DNA of 64,000 bases. Origin: an endosymbiont 'TC1' of Trimyema compressum (GTDB lineage Bacteria; Bacillota; TC1). Positions within the stretch are counted from its first letter, which is position 1, and the number at the start of each line of letters is the position of its first letter. The position numbers and the translations under genes are program-made. Location: contig NZ_CP014606.1 in assembly GCF_001584725.1 (NCBI RefSeq), positions 682,001-746,000 of the forward strand, given 5' to 3'. The notes under the pieces are model-generated. The model saw only the letters and a list, made by a program, of their open reading frames with translations, was not told where the DNA came from and did no database searches. Below are positions 664 to 20,185 of this stretch, piece by piece.

Positions 664-3057
664 ATGTTAGTAAGTAAGAATTGGCTTAATGAATATGTTA
701 CAAATACTCTTGAAGCATCAAGCTTAGAAAAAGAGTTAACGGGTTTGGGTTTGGAAGTGGAAAGTGTCTCATCTCTTAGAAATGGCATTTCATCTATTGT
801 GGCAGGAAAAATTGTTACAATTGAAAAGCATCCAGATGCTGATAAGTTAGTCATTTGCCAAGTCGATGTAGGTAAGGAAGTTTTAACTATTGTGACAGGG
901 GCTAATAATGTATATGAAGGAATGGTTGTACCAGTAGCACTAATCGGTGGAAAAGTTATTCAGGGACCTATTAAAGAAAGTAAATTAAGAGGTGTAAGCT
1001 CTTTTGGAATGTTATGTTCAGGAGAAGAATTAGGTATAGATTCAAGTGTCTTAAATGATTTTGAAAAATATGGTATTTTGCCATTACCTGAAACAACTGT
1101 ATTGGGAGCGGACATTGAATTAGTGTTAGGTCTAGATGATGATATTTTAGATATTGATTTAACACCTAATAGATCCGATTGCTATGGTATTTATAATGTT
1201 GCTCGTGAGGTAGCCATTGCCTACGATACCAATATTAAACCTTTAGAGATTAAAGAGGGTGTAGAAGATGCCTCTTTAATTACTGTTAACATTGAAGAAG
1301 AAGAGCTCTGTCATCGCTATATTGCCAGAGTCATTCGAAATATTAAACTCGGTCCATCCCCTTTATGGTTTCAAAACTTTTTAAGAAGTGCAGGTGTAAG
1401 ACCTATTAGTAATTTAGTTGATATTACAAACTATGTAATGTTGGAATTAGGACACCCAATGCATGCCTTTGATTTAGATACATTGGCATCTAATAGGATT
1501 CATGTTAGAAAAGCAAAAAACAATGAAATTTTTGTTACTTTAGATGGTGTAAAAAGAGAAGTAACTGAGGAAATGTTGGCAATTTGTGATGATGAAAAAA
1601 CAGTGGCTTTAGCAGGGGTTATGGGTGGTTTGAATTCCGAAGTTACAGAGAATACTAAGAATGTTCTATTAGAAGCTGCTCATTTTAATGGTGCTAATAT
1701 ACGAAAAACAAGTAGAAAATTAGGCTTGCGATCAGAGGCTTCTAGCCGTTTTGAAAAAGGCTTATCAGAAGATAATACTTTAATTGCAATGAATAGGGCT
1801 GCCTATTTAATAGAACTTTTAGATATGGGTGAGGTTGAGGAGGTTTATGCCGATTCATACCCTGTTAAACAAAATATACCTGTAATTTATGTTGAAGTCG
1901 ATTGTGTGAACAAAGTATTAGGCATGTCAATTTCTAAAGAAGAAATGATTAATATTTTTGAAAAACTTGATTTTAAAGTTGAAGAAAGAAATAATATATT
2001 AGGGGTTACACCCCTTCCACACAGAATTGATATTACTTCATATGTTGACTTAATTGAAGAAGTTATTAGAATTTATGGTTATGATAAATTGCCAGCAATA
2101 CTGCCAGAAGGAACTACAAATGTCTTAGATCAAGACTTTAAGATTACTTTAGGATGTCAGGCGAAAAATAAAATGGCAGCACTTGGTTTCAATGAAGTAA
2201 TAACCTATAGCTTTATTGATCCTAATTATTTTGATAAAATAAGATTGGACAATATCGCTGTTGAAAGAGATGCTGTTAAAATAATGAACCCAATTAGTGA
2301 AAATCAGTCTGTAATGAGGACGATGCTTTTACCTAACATCCTAGAAATTGCTAGTAGTAACTATAAAAGGCAGCAAAAAGATCTTTCTTTATTTGAAGTA
2401 GGACGTATCTTTAAAAGAGCGGGACAAGAGAAGCCTCTTGAAGAACAGCGCTTAGGTGCATTGATTTTAGGTCGTGACATTAAGCAATGGTATGGTAAAG
2501 AGTCTGTTGATTTCTTTTATTTAAAGGGAATATTAAGAAGCCTTATTAACAGCCTTGGTACTGATTTTAGATTAGAGAGAGAAGTAGAGAATAAAACTTA
2601 TCACCCAGGGAGATGTGGGACTATTTTAATTGATAATCAAGTTGTAGGCATCATTGGAGAGCTTCATCCTCAAGTTGCTGCAGCTTATGATATTAAGGAA
2701 AGAATATATTATTTTGAAATTACCCTTGAAAATTTCAAACCCCAAACTGTACCTCAATACAATCCCCTACCCAAGTATCCTTCTGTAGAAAGAGATATGG
2801 CTTTTATTGTGCCGCAAAATGTCTCAATGGCTCAGATAAAATCAGTAGTAGAAAAAGCTGCTCATGCTGAGAATGTAGTTGATTACCATTTGTTCGATGT
2901 TTATGAGGGTGCTCAAATTGAAGCGGACTATAAAAGTGTAGCTTATCAGATTATTTATCAAGATAAAAATAAAACATTAACTGATGAAAAAGTAAGTGTT
3001 ATTCATGATGGTATATTAAAAGGATTACAATATGAGCTTGGCGCTAAATTAAGATAG
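664..3057 (+). CDS. pheT: Phenylalanine-tRNA ligase beta subunit
   Basis: Full-length PheT (797 residues, normal for bacteria) with no lesion. The order matches the family: an N-terminal tRNA-binding OB domain (residues about 40-150), the B3/B4 editing region, B5, a class II-like core, and a C-terminal FDX-ACB anticodon-binding domain (from about residue 705, containing LPKYPSVERDMAF). The ATG at 664 has AGGAGGTG upstream. It forms the synthetase with PheS. The gene is essential, and its clean state contrasts with the many broken neighbours. Confidence 0.98.
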   Translation: MLVSKNWLNEYVTNTLEASSLEKELTGLGLEVESVSSLRNGISSIVAGKIVTIEKHPDADKLVICQVDVGKEVLTIVTGANNVYEGMVVPVALIGGKVIQGPIKESKLRGVSSFGMLCSGEELGIDSSVLNDFEKYGILPLPETTVLGADIELVLGLDDDILDIDLTPNRSDCYGIYNVAREVAIAYDTNIKPLEIKEGVEDASLITVNIEEEELCHRYIARVIRNIKLGPSPLWFQNFLRSAGVRPISNLVDITNYVMLELGHPMHAFDLDTLASNRIHVRKAKNNEIFVTLDGVKREVTEEMLAICDDEKTVALAGVMGGLNSEVTENTKNVLLEAAHFNGANIRKTSRKLGLRSEASSRFEKGLSEDNTLIAMNRAAYLIELLDMGEVEEVYADSYPVKQNIPVIYVEVDCVNKVLGMSISKEEMINIFEKLDFKVEERNNILGVTPLPHRIDITSYVDLIEEVIRIYGYDKLPAILPEGTTNVLDQDFKITLGCQAKNKMAALGFNEVITYSFIDPNYFDKIRLDNIAVERDAVKIMNPISENQSVMRTMLLPNILEIASSNYKRQQKDLSLFEVGRIFKRAGQEKPLEEQRLGALILGRDIKQWYGKESVDFFYLKGILRSLINSLGTDFRLEREVENKTYHPGRCGTILIDNQVVGIIGELHPQVAAAYDIKERIYYFEITLENFKPQTVPQYNPLPKYPSVERDMAFIVPQNVSMAQIKSVVEKAAHAENVVDYHLFDVYEGAQIEADYKSVAYQIIYQDKNKTLTDEKVSVIHDGILKGLQYELGAKLR

Positions 3058-3059
3058 GG

Positions 3060-3337
3060 GTGGAATTTACGAATAAGAAAAACCATGTTGTTTCAGTTAC
3101 AATTTTCAATCGACCATATGCTATTAAAACTGATGAAAAAACTGATTATATCGATAATTTAGCAAAAGAATTAGATCAACTTCTTCATAGAGCCTCAAAA
3201 AAGGTACTTCATCAGAAATTGAAATGATGACCTTAGTCATGTTACAATTTATGGATAAACATAAAAAACTAGAAAAAGATTATGAGTCTTTAATCAAAGT
3301 TGCAAAAAAAATGGAATTAGGTTCAAAAAATAAGTAA
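3060..3337 (+). pseudogene. zapA: Cell division protein ZapA, split by one frameshift
   Basis: Two frames together read as ZapA, a small FtsZ-ring stabiliser. The first begins VSVTIFNRPYAIKTDEKTDY and reaches LDQLLHRASK. The second continues EIEMMTLVMLQFMDKHKKLE to a stop at 3335. They join at an A6 run (3197-3202), where one more A would restore a protein of about 91 residues. pheT-zapA is a standard Firmicutes neighbourhood. The start is uncertain: GTG 3060 sits almost on the pheT stop and lacks a well-spaced ribosome site. The junction reads A AAA AAG in the zero frame, a classic -1 slippery heptamer, so expression by slippage is possible. Alternatives are a sequencing error or a fresh null mutation. 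Confidence 0.8.
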
Positions 3338-3349
3338 AGAGGTGAATGT

Positions 3350-3679
3350 ATGTTTGTATTAGTGCTTGTATTACTCTTATTAATCGTAAGTATAGTGTTG
3401 GGACAACTTAATACCCAAACAATCGATTTTAATTTTTTTGGCATTATGTTACATGGTATCCCTCTAAGTGTTCTCTTACTAACCTGTTTGTTAATTGGTG
3501 TGGTTCTTACTTATCTTTCATTTTCAATTAAAAATTTAATTTTAAAAAATAAATTGGATCAGGAAAGAAAGGCCGTTAAAACTCTTAGTAAGAGAGAGCT
3601 TAAACTAAAAGAACAACTTAAGGAATTAGAACAAAAAGTTTTGAAGAAAGAAGAAGAAGTCAAAAAAACTGAGGAGTAA
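3350..3679 (+). CDS. LapA-domain (DUF1049) small membrane protein
   Basis: 109 residues with two hydrophobic segments (about 1-20 and 33-58) and a charged, Lys/Glu-rich coiled-coil tail from about 65. After the first segment comes NTQTIDFNFFGI, typical of the LapA/YrvD/DUF1049 family. In enterobacteria LapA relatives assist lipopolysaccharide assembly; in Firmicutes the role is unknown. A GAGGTG site precedes ATG 3350. It lies between zapA and recD2 and is probably in the same transcript. The family is fairly clear; the function is not. Confidence 0.75.
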   Translation: MFVLVLVLLLLIVSIVLGQLNTQTIDFNFFGIMLHGIPLSVLLLTCLLIGVVLTYLSFSIKNLILKNKLDQERKAVKTLSKRELKLKEQLKELEQKVLKKEEEVKKTEE

Positions 3680-3691
3680 GAACAGAGTTAG

Positions 3692-5839
3692 ATGGGAAAA
3701 CTAGTCGGAATAGTTGAGAGAATCGTTTATCAAAATGAAGAAAATGGTTTTACTGTTCTACGATTAAGAGAAGAATTGAAAAATAATTTAATTACTGTAA
3801 CAGGCTATTTTGCCGGTATTTCAGTCGGCCTTTTACTTGAAGCAAAGGGCCGATTTGGTGTTTTTAAATATGGAGAACAGTTTGAAGCTTCTGAATATAA
3901 AGAACATTTACCTAACTCTCTTGAAGGCATTGAGAAATACTTATCAAGTGGTTTAATTAAAGGAGTTGGAGCAGTTTATGGCAAAAAGATAGTTAACTAC
4001 TTTAAAGAGGATACACTGGAGATACTTGAAAAATATCCTGAAAGGTTACTTGAAATAGAAGGTATTGGTGAGAAAAAATATGAGCAGATTGTTTCTTCTT
4101 ATCAAGGTCAAAGAGAAATAAAGGATGTTATGATATTTCTACAAAGTCATGGGGTGTCATCTACTTATGCTTTAAAAATATATAAAACATATAAAAATGA
4201 TAGCATAAGAATTGTTTCTGAAAATCCCTATGCTTTAGCTGAAGATGTGTTTGGCATAGGTTTTCATATTGCTGACCGAATAGCTTCTACAATGGGCTTT
4301 GAAAGAGAATCTTTAAAACGAGCTAAAGCTGGATTACGTTATTTGCTAATTCAGAACAGTGGCAAAGGTCATGTTTATGTAGATAAAAAAAACTTACTAA
4401 CTGAAGGAGAAGCTCTATTAGGAGTTTCAGCCTATTTACTTGAGGATAGTCTTGATTGTATGATTATGGATGATGAGGCGATTTTCGAAAGTCCAGAAGC
4501 TATTTATCTTCCTTCATTGTTTGTTTGTGAAAATGGAGCGGTAAAGAGGCTGGAATCAATTTTAATGAGTGGCAAATTTACAGTAAGGGAAAGAAAAAAA
4601 GTTCTAGAAAAAGTTGTTGAGAAAAATCATTTTAACTATAATGAAGAACAGAGACTAGCTATTTTAGATGCTTTAAAAGAAAAAATTATGATTTTAACTG
4701 GAGGCCCAGGAACGGGTAAGACAACCACAACATTAGGCATCATTCAAGCTTTAGAGGAGATTAATCAAAAAATTCTAATTGCTGCGCCAACAGGAAGAGC
4801 TGCAAAACGCTTAAGTGAAATTACAGGTAAAGAAAGCAAAACTATTCATCGTTTATTAGAGTTTTCTCTTCTAGAAGGTTTTAATAGAAATGAAAATAAT
4901 CCTCTAGATTGTAATGTAGTAATAGTAGATGAATTTTCTATGGTTGATATTGTACTTTTTTATCATTTACTTAAAGCAGTTCCAGATTCTGCATCATTAA
5001 TTTTTATTGGAGATGTTGATCAACTACCTTCAGTTGGTCCTGGTAACGTGTTGCAGGATTTGATTGGTTCTGGCTTAATCAAAACGGTTTACCTAAAAGA
5101 GATTTTTAGACAGGGTAAGGAAAGTAAAATTATTACTAATGCACACTTAATAAATAAAGGGATTTTTCCTCAAGTTAATAATAATGAAGATGATGATTTC
5201 TTTTATATTAAAGAAGTTAAGAGAGAACGTATTTTTACTTTAATAAAAAAGCTATGCCAAGAAAGATTGCCTAAAAAATATGGTGTGGATCCAATTAATG
5301 ATGTTCAAGTATTAGTACCTGTTAAAAAAGGAATTGTTAGTACAAAGACAATAAATGAGCTATTCCAGAATACATTTAATCCATTAGGTCCAGCTATTGT
5401 TTCTGGAGAGTATACTTTTAGGGTAAAGGATAAAGTGATGCAGTTAAAAAATAACTATGATAAAAATGTATTTAATGGAGATATTGGGAGAATAGCAGAA
5501 GTTGATGAAAGTGATAGTAGTTTGTTAGTACAGTTTGAAAATGAATTAATTTCCTACGAGCATACTGAGCTGGATGAGCTTCAATTAGCCTATGCTATTA
5601 CTATTCATAAAAGCCAGGGGAGTGAGTATCCAGTTGTTATAATGCCTCTAGTCAATCAGCATTTTATGATGCTTCAGAAAAACTTGATTTACACAGGATT
5701 AACTAGAGCTAAAAAATTATTTATATTAATAGGCAATGATAAAGCCCTAGCTATTGCACTTGAAAAAGATACTATTGATAAAAGGAATACAAGCCTTAAG
5801 GAAAAACTGAGTTTGCTACTGGAAAAATGGAGGATTTAA
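3692..5839 (+). CDS. recD2: RecD2-type ATP-dependent DNA helicase
   Basis: 715 residues, typical of the RecD-like SF1B helicases (YrrC/RecD2) that unwind DNA 5' to 3' outside a RecBCD complex. Visible features are an OB-like N-terminus, helix-hairpin-helix repeats (GLIKGVGAVYGKKI, EIEGIGEKKYEQI), Walker A GGPGTGKTTTT near residue 337, Walker B VVIVDEFSMVD near 408, the GDVDQLPSVGPG motif, and the C-terminal AITIHKSQGSEYP motif near 633. The gene is intact. The upstream ribosome site is weak. It probably acts in replication-linked repair. Confidence 0.93.
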   Translation: MGKLVGIVERIVYQNEENGFTVLRLREELKNNLITVTGYFAGISVGLLLEAKGRFGVFKYGEQFEASEYKEHLPNSLEGIEKYLSSGLIKGVGAVYGKKIVNYFKEDTLEILEKYPERLLEIEGIGEKKYEQIVSSYQGQREIKDVMIFLQSHGVSSTYALKIYKTYKNDSIRIVSENPYALAEDVFGIGFHIADRIASTMGFERESLKRAKAGLRYLLIQNSGKGHVYVDKKNLLTEGEALLGVSAYLLEDSLDCMIMDDEAIFESPEAIYLPSLFVCENGAVKRLESILMSGKFTVRERKKVLEKVVEKNHFNYNEEQRLAILDALKEKIMILTGGPGTGKTTTTLGIIQALEEINQKILIAAPTGRAAKRLSEITGKESKTIHRLLEFSLLEGFNRNENNPLDCNVVIVDEFSMVDIVLFYHLLKAVPDSASLIFIGDVDQLPSVGPGNVLQDLIGSGLIKTVYLKEIFRQGKESKIITNAHLINKGIFPQVNNNEDDDFFYIKEVKRERIFTLIKKLCQERLPKKYGVDPINDVQVLVPVKKGIVSTKTINELFQNTFNPLGPAIVSGEYTFRVKDKVMQLKNNYDKNVFNGDIGRIAEVDESDSSLLVQFENELISYEHTELDELQLAYAITIHKSQGSEYPVVIMPLVNQHFMMLQKNLIYTGLTRAKKLFILIGNDKALAIALEKDTIDKRNTSLKEKLSLLLEKWRI

Positions 5840-7300: not shown

Positions 7301-8040
7301 ATGGCAAATACAACAGATATTAAAATTAACGAGGTAATTAAACGTTATAACCCAAATGATAAACCGGCAGTTAATGGTGTGTCATTTGAGGTTAAACCAG
7401 GAGAAATATTTGGCTTTCTAGGTCCTGATGGAGCTGGCAAAACTACATTGATTAAAATGATGACTGGTTTATTGAGACCTGATAGTGGTTCTATTACTAT
7501 GGGTGGCAATGATATTGTGAAAAACCCAGAAGCTACTAAAAAATGTTTGGTTATGCTCCTGATACACCGAGTATTTTCGGAAAAATTAAAGGTATGGATT
7601 ATTTGAATTTTATTGATAATATTTATGAAGTTCCTAAAGATTTAAGAGAAGCTAGGATTAAGGAATACAGTGAGGCCCTTGCTCTTCAAGATAATCTTTA
7701 TGATTTTATTGAGTCTTATTCTCATGGTATGAAACAGAAATTGGCAGTTATTGGTGTTTTGATTTATGAACCGAAAGTTTGGATTTTAGATGAGCCTTTA
7801 GTTGGATTAGACCCTAAGTCAGCATTTACTTTAAAAGAAATAATGAAGAAACATGCTGAAAAAGGCAATATTGTGTTCTTTTCAAGTCACATTCTTGAAG
7901 TTGTTGAAAAACTATGTGATAGAATTGGTATTATTAGAAAAGGAGAATTAGTAACAATAGGCTCTATTAAAGAAATTAAAGAAGCATTTAAAGATGAGTC
8001 TCTTGAAGATATTGTATTGGAGATTATTGACAATGAATAG
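7301..8040 (+). pseudogene. ABC transporter ATP-binding protein, one frameshift
   Basis: An ABC-2 type exporter ATPase split into two overlapping frames. The first part, from ATG 7301 (AGGAGG upstream), has Walker [12 protein letters not shown], with Asp where Asn is usual. The second part has signature SHGMKQKLA, Walker B VWILDEPLVGLDP and the switch histidine in SSHILEV. One added base in the A6 run at 7538-7543 would join them into about 247 residues, and no other lesion is seen. The gene overlaps its permease (ATG 8033), which is wrecked, so the transporter is probably dead even if this subunit is made. Confidence 0.85.
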
Positions 8041-9623
8041 TATCAAAGAATTATTGAAAATTTATTTTAAACAAGCTAGTGGTATTTCTGAAATTGCCTA
8101 TATGACTAAAAAAGGCAGAGTTGGGCCTATCCTAACAAGTATTTTAAAATTAATTGTTAAATTTATTATGGGTATTGTTTTCTTTTTTCTGGCCTTGGCA
8201 TTAGGTATAATAAGCAATGTTTTCGGCTTTCCTGAGGCAAGGTTTGAAAATTGGTATTTTTATTGTTTTTTAATTATGTTAGTTGAGGGATTTTCTCTTT
8301 TCTTTAATATGTTTATTGAAGATAAAAATACAGAATTAATTATTCCAATGCCTATTAAAACCAGTCATATTATTTATAGTAAATTTATTTATACTTTATA
8401 TATTATTAAGTAATATTTTAATTTTAATTCCTTTAGTTTTTGCATATGTTATTCCCTATGGTAATCCTATTTACTGGTTGGTTGCTACAACTGTGATTGT
8501 TTTATTACCTGCATTAACTCTAGTAATTGTCGGTATTATTACTTTATTATTAGGCAGAGTATTGACTACAAAAGGTGCACGAGGTGTTTTATCATTTATA
8601 GGAACTCTTATAATTATTATTTTTAGTTTTTCTATTTCAGCTTTAGGCCCAATATTGAGCAATAGTAATACTAATTCCTTAGAGCTTTTAGGAGCTGCTC
8701 AATCATTCCTTAATTATTCTGGTATCTATCCTCTTGCTGGAGCTATTTTTTTAGTCCTTTTTATAATTTTTTAATATTTTTAGTAGTTTCTATTGCAATC
8801 CTGTTTATATTCTTTAAAGTAGCTACAAGAGTATATTATAATTGGTTTATTTTAGCTAAGTTAGAATCGACAGGGAAAAAGAAAAAAGGGAAAATTACTG
8901 GTGTTAATAAAGCAGAAAGTCCTTTTAAAGCTTTGCTCAAGTGGGATTTTATATATTTGTTTAAAACACCTATGTTTTTTTATATACTCTTTTCTCAGCA
9001 GTTTTAATGCCATTTTTCTGTTTAATACCTTTTTACTTTCTTAATAAAATCGATACAAAGGAAGAAGGATTTCAAGGTATAATGCATGAGGTTAATAATT
9101 TTGTGCAAAGTGAAAATGCTATTTGGATTGTAATAATAAAGGTAACTATTTTTATATAAAGAAACTGCTTCCATTAAAAAGTTCTTGGTTATAATGGAGC
9201 AAGGCAATTATAGCCTACGTATTTTCATTGTTAACTAGTGTTGTAGCATTAGTAATTGGGGCTATAATAGGATTGGGATTATTTGATTTAATCAATCTGT
9301 TCTTATTATCAGCATTATTTTTATTACCATTAACACTGATGTCTGTTCTTATGGATAGTTTAAGACCTTACATGAAATGGACAACACCAAAAATGTGTAT
9401 TAATAAGAATCTTAATAGTTTATTTTCTATGCTTATTGGTTTAATTTTTATAGGAGTTATTGTTATTATTGGTGTTGTTTTGGGATTTGCTCGATTAGCA
9501 GTACCAATTCCATCACTGGTGATTTATTTAGTATTCTATGTACTAGGTTTAATACTAACTGGTTTAGTTATTTTATTAGTAAAAAAGACTGGAAGTAGCA
9601 GAATAAGCAGAATACAAAGTTAA
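8033..9623 (+). pseudogene. ABC-2 type permease, multiply frameshifted
   Basis: A relic of the membrane partner of the preceding ATPase, starting at ATG 8033 inside its 3' end. Hydrophobic protein runs on in broken pieces: 8033-8413, about 8410-8774, about 8775-9005, about 9007-9160 and 9228-9623, with changes of frame between them. The intact length would be near 530 residues. At least four lesions are spread along it, so this is a genuine pseudogene rather than one base-calling error. The substrate is unknown. Confidence 0.85.
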
Positions 9624-17849: not shown

Positions 17850-20185
17850 ATGATGATTGAGAAAACTCAAATGGTTCTTGAGTTGGCAGAAATTAGAAAG
17901 CGTTTAGCTGCCTTTTGTAGCCATCCATTAGCAGGGGATTGGGCAATAAATATGGAACTAGCTTCTAGTTATGAAGAAACTGAAAGCAGGCTATTTGAAA
18001 CAAGCTGTGCTATGGATATAAAAAGAGAATACCCCTTGTTAAAGTCAGGAGGATTACCTCCAATGGATTTAACGATTCAAAAAAAATAAGAAAGAATCCC
18101 TATTAAAAGAAGAAGATTTATTTAATTTGCTTAGGCTTTTGGAAGTAACTAGCCGAAGTTAAAGGTTTTTTAAAGAGCCAATTGAAATACCGCTTTTTTC
18201 TAATTTAATTCAGCTTTTAATGACTAAAGATGACTTGAAAAATATTTTAAATAATACGATAGATGAAACATTAGTTATTTTAGATACAGGAAGCCCAGCT
18301 TTAAAAGAAATTAGACGAAAACTGCTACAATTGAAGAATAAAGAGAAAACTATTGTGGAGAATATGACAAAAAAGGTTCGTATGTTTCTTTTTTACAAGA
18401 GCCTATTGTAGTTAAAAGAGGCGATAGCTATTGCTTAAGTGTTAAGAGAGAGTATGGTCATAAAGTAAGCGGGGGTTAGTTCAAGATACTTCTAGTACTG
18501 GTAGTACTATATTTATTGAACTGAGAGAAGCCATTCAAATTAGAAGCGATAGAGGTGTTCTTAAAAGAGAAGAAAAAGAAGAAATTGATAGAATCTTGAG
18601 AAGTATATCAGAATGGGCTTATTTAGAGTCTAGGGATTTAGAAAGTAATTTTAAAGGGTTAGGCTATTATAATTTTTATTTAGCTAAGGCATCATTATTG
18701 TCTCAAATGAGAGGTATAGTACCGGATTTAAACAATAAAGGTATTATGGAAATATATTCTGGTAAACGCCCTCTACTAGAAGGAAATGTTGTTCCTAATA
18801 ATGTATTCTTAGGCGAAAAATTTCATACTTTAATTATTACAGGTCCTAATACCGGGGGTAAAACAGTTGTATTAAAAATGGTAGGTTTATTTTCACTAAT
18901 GGTTCGATTAGGGTTAGGCGTACCTGCTAGAATAGGCACTAAAATGCCTTTTTTTTAAAAAAGTATTTGCTCAAATTGGTGATGAACAGAGTATAGAGCA
19001 GTCTTTAAGTACTTTTTCATCTCATATGGTGCAAATTAAAGAAATGGTAGATGAAGGCGATTATCAATCTCTATTGCTTTTTGATGAGCTAGGTAGTGGT
19101 ACTGATCCCTCAGAAGGCAGTAGTTTAGCCATGGCTATCTTAACTCATCTAGGAGAAAATGGTTCGAGAACAATTGCCACAACTCACTATGGTGAGTTAA
19201 AAGCATTTACTTATGAAAATGAGGGCTTTGAAAATGGTTCAGTTACATTTTGATGAGAATACTTTATCCCCTTACTTATAAACTAGTAATTGGAACGCCT
19301 GGGGCTAGTTTAGGTATTGCAGTTGCCCAACCGTTATGGTTTAGATCCTAGTGTTATTGAAATGGCCAAAAATTTTCAACAAGAAGGCGCTTTAGAGGTT
19401 TCAGCATTAATTGTTGACTTAGATAAAACTAGAAATGAACTTAAAGAAGAAACAATAAAAGTAAATAAACTGAAAAAAGAGTTGACTAATGCGAGAGAAG
19501 CTTTGGAAAAAGACAAAGATAAGTTTGAAGAAAAACGTAAGGATAAACTTCAAAAAGAGCAAAAGAAAGCGGAGCTGGAACTTTATAATCTCAGAATTGA
19601 ATCATAAAAAATAATTGAAGCATTAAAAGAACAATTTAAAAATAAACCTGAAATAACTAATCAAATCAGAAAGAAAATTAAGGGACTTGAAAACAAGTTT
19701 TTAAAAACCAATACAGTGAATACAAGAGAAGGTTTAAAATCTGTTGAGGTTGGGGACTCAGTCTTAGTTTATTCTGTTAATAAGGAAGGGACTGTTGAGT
19801 TTATAGACACTCATAAAAAAACTGCTCATGTTAAGGTTGGTCTGATGACTATAAAAGTACCTTTCAATGGATTGGGAAAAATAAAGACTGTGGAGACTGT
19901 AGAATCTGTAATGCCAAGTTGAGGAAACTTTAAAAGCAATTATGTTGCTACAGAAATTGATGTTCGCGGTCATAATATAGAGGATGGCGTCTATCTAGTG
20001 GATAAGTATTTAGATGATGTCTATCTTGGTAATTATCCATTTGTGAGGATTATTCATGGTAAAGGAACTGGTGTTCTTCAAAAAGGCATCTGGAGTTATT
20101 TGAAAAACATCCTCATATAAAAGAGTTTAGGTTAGGTGAAACAGGATAAGGCGGTACTGGCGTGACTGTCGTATATTTTAAATAA
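17850..20185 (+). pseudogene. mutS2: Endonuclease MutS2, ruined
   Basis: MutS2 suppresses recombination or rescues collided ribosomes in other bacteria. The remains keep Walker A GPNTGGKTVVLK (about 18845), Walker [20 protein letters not shown] (about 19075), the coiled-coil linker, and the C-terminal Smr domain (DVRGHNIEDGVYLVDKY; RIIHGKGTGVLQ). They lie in at least seven frame pieces. In-frame stops also occur near 18159, at 19605 and at 20147-20149, where TAA replaces the Glu of GEGGTGVT. The gene follows U32, its normal neighbour. Inactive. Confidence 0.92.

Follow-up and report, generated by a model that had tools for sequence, protein, structure and literature searches.

A frame break at an A-run in zapA of the Trimyema compressum endosymbiont TC1, probably an early step of gene decay in a genome with broken mismatch-repair genes

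A programmed -1 ribosomal frameshift requires a slippery heptamer of the form X_XXY_YYZ in the zero frame. According to the part of PMC4066793 drawn on here, E. coli heptamers without stimulators shift 2- to 10-fold above background, and transcriptional slippage is tied, in the portion of PMC3711429 that we cite, to runs of n above 7. Slippage has also been proposed, in the relevant sections of PMC3017870 and PMC5009743, as the means by which frameshifts are tolerated in genes of insect endosymbionts.

A heptamer of the required form lies at a frame break in zapA of the endosymbiont TC1 of Trimyema compressum. The window, by which we mean the whole 64,000-nt stretch of DNA analysed, carries six A's at 3197-3202 followed by a G at 3203, and the codons read from the GTG at 3060 are TCA AAA AAG GTA at the break, which places the heptamer AAAAAAG in the phase tcA AAA AAG (Table 1). 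The sequence-only reading had described this as a perfect A AAA AAG motif, the same as that of dnaX, from which a -1 slip leads into the remaining ZapA frame. All of this holds: here, as in E. coli dnaX, the motif stands in the zero frame, and the -1 frame of zapA runs to the stop at 3335-3337 without a second lesion. Both the read-through protein (39.6 bits) and the first part alone (24.3 bits) pass the cut-off of 23.8 bits for the ZapA family, PF05164. In a 14-row alignment of ZapA proteins (L026, one of these rows, is a spurious short frame; several further loci were omitted for want of a usable frame), the two parts continue as one protein, and the second aligns with the proteins of relatives along its length and is well kept. 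The presence of a single lesion, and the good state of what follows it, count against a reading of the gene as decaying.

Table 1. Features at and around the zapA frame break, in window coordinates
Feature	Position	Strand	Remarks
pheT (presumed), upstream of zapA	664..3057	+	open over 797 aa; relatives 33-41% identity
zapA first part, zero frame	3060..3227	+	GTG start, 55 aa; stop TGA 3225-3227
A-run and G at the zapA frame break	3197..3203	+	A_AAA_AAG in zero frame; from sequence
zapA remainder, -1 frame	3203..3337	+	open from A-run to stop 3335-3337
LapA-domain protein gene	3350..3679	+	open; PF06305 40.6 bits
recD2	3692..5839	+	open; TIGR01448 861 bits
ABC-transporter ATPase gene (presumed)	7302..8040	+	broken once; A6 run 7538-7543, not in slip-prone phase

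The gene upstream of zapA is one that we take to be pheT, from a first look at its sequence; a scan of named genomes with its product found seven loci at the identities tabulated, none of them near. In the relative G002, zapA likewise lies just before recD2. The presumed ATPase gene, named from a reading of its translation, has a break nearby and of the same kind as that of zapA. It belongs to an ABC-transporter operon at 7302-9000 of the window, in which the frame of the next gene changes near 8407 and 8770.

The motif has the heptamer and the phase of E. coli dnaX, as expected if a programmed -1 ribosomal frameshift yielded a short and a full ZapA in the manner of that gene. Its surroundings argue otherwise. 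None of five patterns of SD-like stimulator (from PMC4066793) is present 6-17 nt upstream of the heptamer, and where a stimulatory stem-loop had been suggested as a check after 3203, four pseudoknot-free folds around and after the motif gave z-scores of -0.34 to -0.79, which is nothing unusual. Furthermore, AAAAAAG occurs 1204 times on the forward and 1153 times on the reverse strand of the genome, and 47 times in the same phase within 296 ORFs of at least 150 aa (266 kb of ORFs, from the 464-kb sample described below), so that its presence alone says little.

Relatives do not share the split. Our search covered 41 genomes including that of TC1, the closest being five of the same family, with no other genome of the same genus; 25 gave a match at E <= 0.01 and 16 gave none. 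Apart from the two pieces in TC1, all 25 matches, from 24 genomes, are without an internal stop, although one of the 25 lies in a 1196-aa frame and is a different protein. The five same-family genomes have no A6 run at the junction. Viral contigs scanned for a 23-base stretch of zapA gave no match, and the titles returned by a literature search on ZapA with ribosomal frameshifting concern only sobemoviruses, an antiviral host factor and plant alkaloids. Lacking both conservation and stimulators, a programmed shift in zapA is rejected, and we regard it as extremely improbable. The sequence-only reading had offered a programmed or tolerated frameshift and a one-base deletion as options; the deletion is favoured, programming being set against about a hundred other breaks in a 464-kb sample of the genome as well as the evidence above. 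We also rejected translational coupling of two half-genes, through an ATG at 3224 that shares bases with the zero-frame stop and begins an ORF of 37 aa: it is possible on the sequence, but the relatives have one frame, and nothing else supports it.

A real deletion could nevertheless be tolerated, if slippage of RNA polymerase or the ribosome at the A-run were frequent enough for some full-length ZapA to be produced. The slip-prone phase of the run and the preservation of the rest of the gene are consistent with this, and the frameshifted genes of insect endosymbionts, as treated in the cited sections of PMC3017870 and PMC5009743, provide precedents. Yet six A's fall short of the run lengths tied to transcriptional slippage (PMC3711429, in the portion cited), stimulator-free heptamers shift little in E. 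coli (PMC4066793, likewise in part), and breaks on the same heptamer are found in plainly dead genes. We therefore judge tolerance unlikely. It is slightly more doubtful still that, in a 1.6-Mb genome without MutS and MutL, slippage on short A-runs sustains part of the function of genes like zapA; if this were true, cell division would depend in part on leaky decoding.

The state of the mismatch-repair genes bears on how such a break could arise. Loss of mismatch repair raises the rate of homopolymer indels. In TC1, the best match to mutS1 anywhere in the genome consists of pieces below the family cut-off, and for mutL there are two pieces, both under the cut-off, one of which carries five stops. 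The mutS and mutL pieces, at G000:C1:1006848-1011168, are separated by stops, and the genome has no full-length match elsewhere. The window itself contains pieces matching the MutS family at 18593-19235 and a remnant of an Smr domain with a break and a stop at 19845-20182; together these are probably a decayed mutS2.

With MutS and MutL decayed, slips in A/T runs would go uncorrected, and breaks in TC1 are indeed enriched at such runs. Within ~10 nt of a run of at least 5 lie 49 of 124 break events (39 of 80 deletions and 10 of 44 insertions), against ~16% of random positions in unbroken genes. A slightly wider search found 43 deletion breaks near A/T runs of at least 5, ten of them with a canonical heptamer nearby. 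In three of these ten, all of them breaks other than that of zapA, A_AAA_AAG is present: two belong to genes broken three and six times, and the third to an integrase-domain remnant. The break in zapA therefore belongs to a series.

These events were counted in a sample of 464 kb (the window and 400 kb beyond it) of a genome of 1.62 Mb in two contigs that is 96.88% complete; for comparison we used ~1.17 Mb of the same-family genome G002, which was the sole control. Frame-aware alignment of G002 proteins to the sample gave 174 comparable genes, of which 45 carry the 124 events (80 deletions, 44 insertions in total); 34 of these genes have several breaks and 11 a single one. Eleven of the 124 events sit at least 60 nt inside an open ORF and are probably alignment artefacts. 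Where identity is at least 50%, 27 of 114 genes are broken, by 83 events. The reverse search, made as a control on G002, covered 180 places and returned 19 events, spread over 17 of them; 14 of the 19 lie inside open G002 ORFs, and their source is therefore the broken query proteins rather than G002. A BLAST-based test for genes in pieces, over 400 kb of G002, found 18 of 113 genes broken in the endosymbiont as against 0 of 103 in G002. Under a model allowing frame shifts, the coding fraction is 0.74 in the endosymbiont sample and 0.95 in that of G002. Only this fraction was used from the ab initio model; its shift counts (292 in the endosymbiont, 195 in G002) were dropped, since many calls fall at ordinary gene junctions.

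The breaks are clustered by gene. Event-free genes number 129 of 174, compared with 90 expected from an even rate and 98 from a rate set for each sampled stretch (the window being one stretch). In one example, L057, nine comparable genes without events are followed by an ilvC homologue with five events and a stop, and the next two genes are again event-free. In-frame stops mostly stand apart from the shifts, 17 of 20 being at least 30 nt from any of them, and 16 of the 20 are TAA or TAG; some TGA codons in glycine-reductase genes could be explained by selenocysteine. Named by their intact G002 homologues, the broken genes include mutS, ilvC, components of glycine reductase, a carbamoyltransferase, an M18 aminopeptidase, an FMN reductase, transporters, SfsA, nucleoside phosphorylases, a purH-like gene and a sulfate permease. 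Ten long genes of the window, among them dnaG, rpoD, metK, dxs, recD2 and recN, have open frames from end to end, and FtsZ is intact. Breaks and nonsense codons are therefore widespread in dispensable genes while essential genes stay open, as in a genome that is accumulating pseudogenes.

Two further observations concern the same genome. At L062 3036-18580, glycine-reductase genes and their neighbours (a carbamoyltransferase and a YgeY-like hydrolase) are mostly broken, yet 68-83% identical to their G002 homologues. By BLAST, the two copies of 23S rRNA show complete, ungapped identity across 2820 nt, which is neutral with regard to decay; at the second copy (G000:C1:1202432-1204935) the family search returned pieces and no match to the 5' part of the model, consistent with either a truncated operon or an assembly join.

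A lone break in an A-run, in a gene without other lesions and with unbroken relatives, might also come from an assembly indel error at a homopolymer, the cell itself having an unbroken zapA, and the 11 genes with a single break leave some room for such errors. However, the 128 unbroken genes examined in the sample contain 407 A/T runs of at least 6 that remain in frame. This speaks against assembly errors being frequent at such runs, even though these genes were chosen as break-free, and the ten long open genes of the window, several of them essential, point the same way. Those single-break genes that could be named (transporters, reductases, a peptidase, an integrase remnant and others) are more in keeping with decay than with random error. 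We set aside pervasive sequencing error as an account of every break, because the breaks follow gene borders, nonsense codons are present, essential genes have kept their frames and the coding fraction stays low even when shifts are allowed. For the single run in zapA we consider such an error improbable, and the break is presumably present in the living cell.

Our preferred reading, to which we assign a probability of roughly 0.6, is that zapA has recently lost one base from its A-run, as an early step of its decay, in a genome that is under reduction and lacks mismatch repair. In the proposed course of events, reductive decay would have left many dispensable genes with several indels and nonsense codons, the mutS and mutL genes among the casualties, and slips in A/T runs would since have escaped correction; the zapA break would then be later than the loss of mismatch repair. 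Model bacteria can do without ZapA, so that the cell would tolerate its loss, and probably little of the full protein is made. The break is most likely ordinary decay of a dispensable gene. It also carries a caution: wherever bases are being lost from A-runs, frame breaks that coincide with a perfect slippery heptamer are to be expected, since by frame alone about one such loss in three should leave the slip-prone phase. More interesting than the break in zapA is the wider finding of a lineage in active gene decay with broken mismatch-repair genes, and a separate study of this shrinking genome may be worthwhile.

Compared with E. coli dnaX (PMC3711429, in the portion cited), the zapA break shares the heptamer A_AAA_AAG in the zero frame, but it has no SD-like stimulator, unusual downstream structure or conservation, and the roles of the frames are reversed, the zero frame leading to the long product in dnaX and to the short one in zapA. 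In relation to the poly-A/T frameshifts of Blochmannia vafer, as presented in the cited sections of PMC3017870, the zapA run is shorter (six A's against at least nine), the genome, at 1.62 Mb, is larger, and slippage would apply here by analogy; what the two have in common is a single indel in an A-run, within a gene that is otherwise open, in an AT-rich genome that is losing genes.
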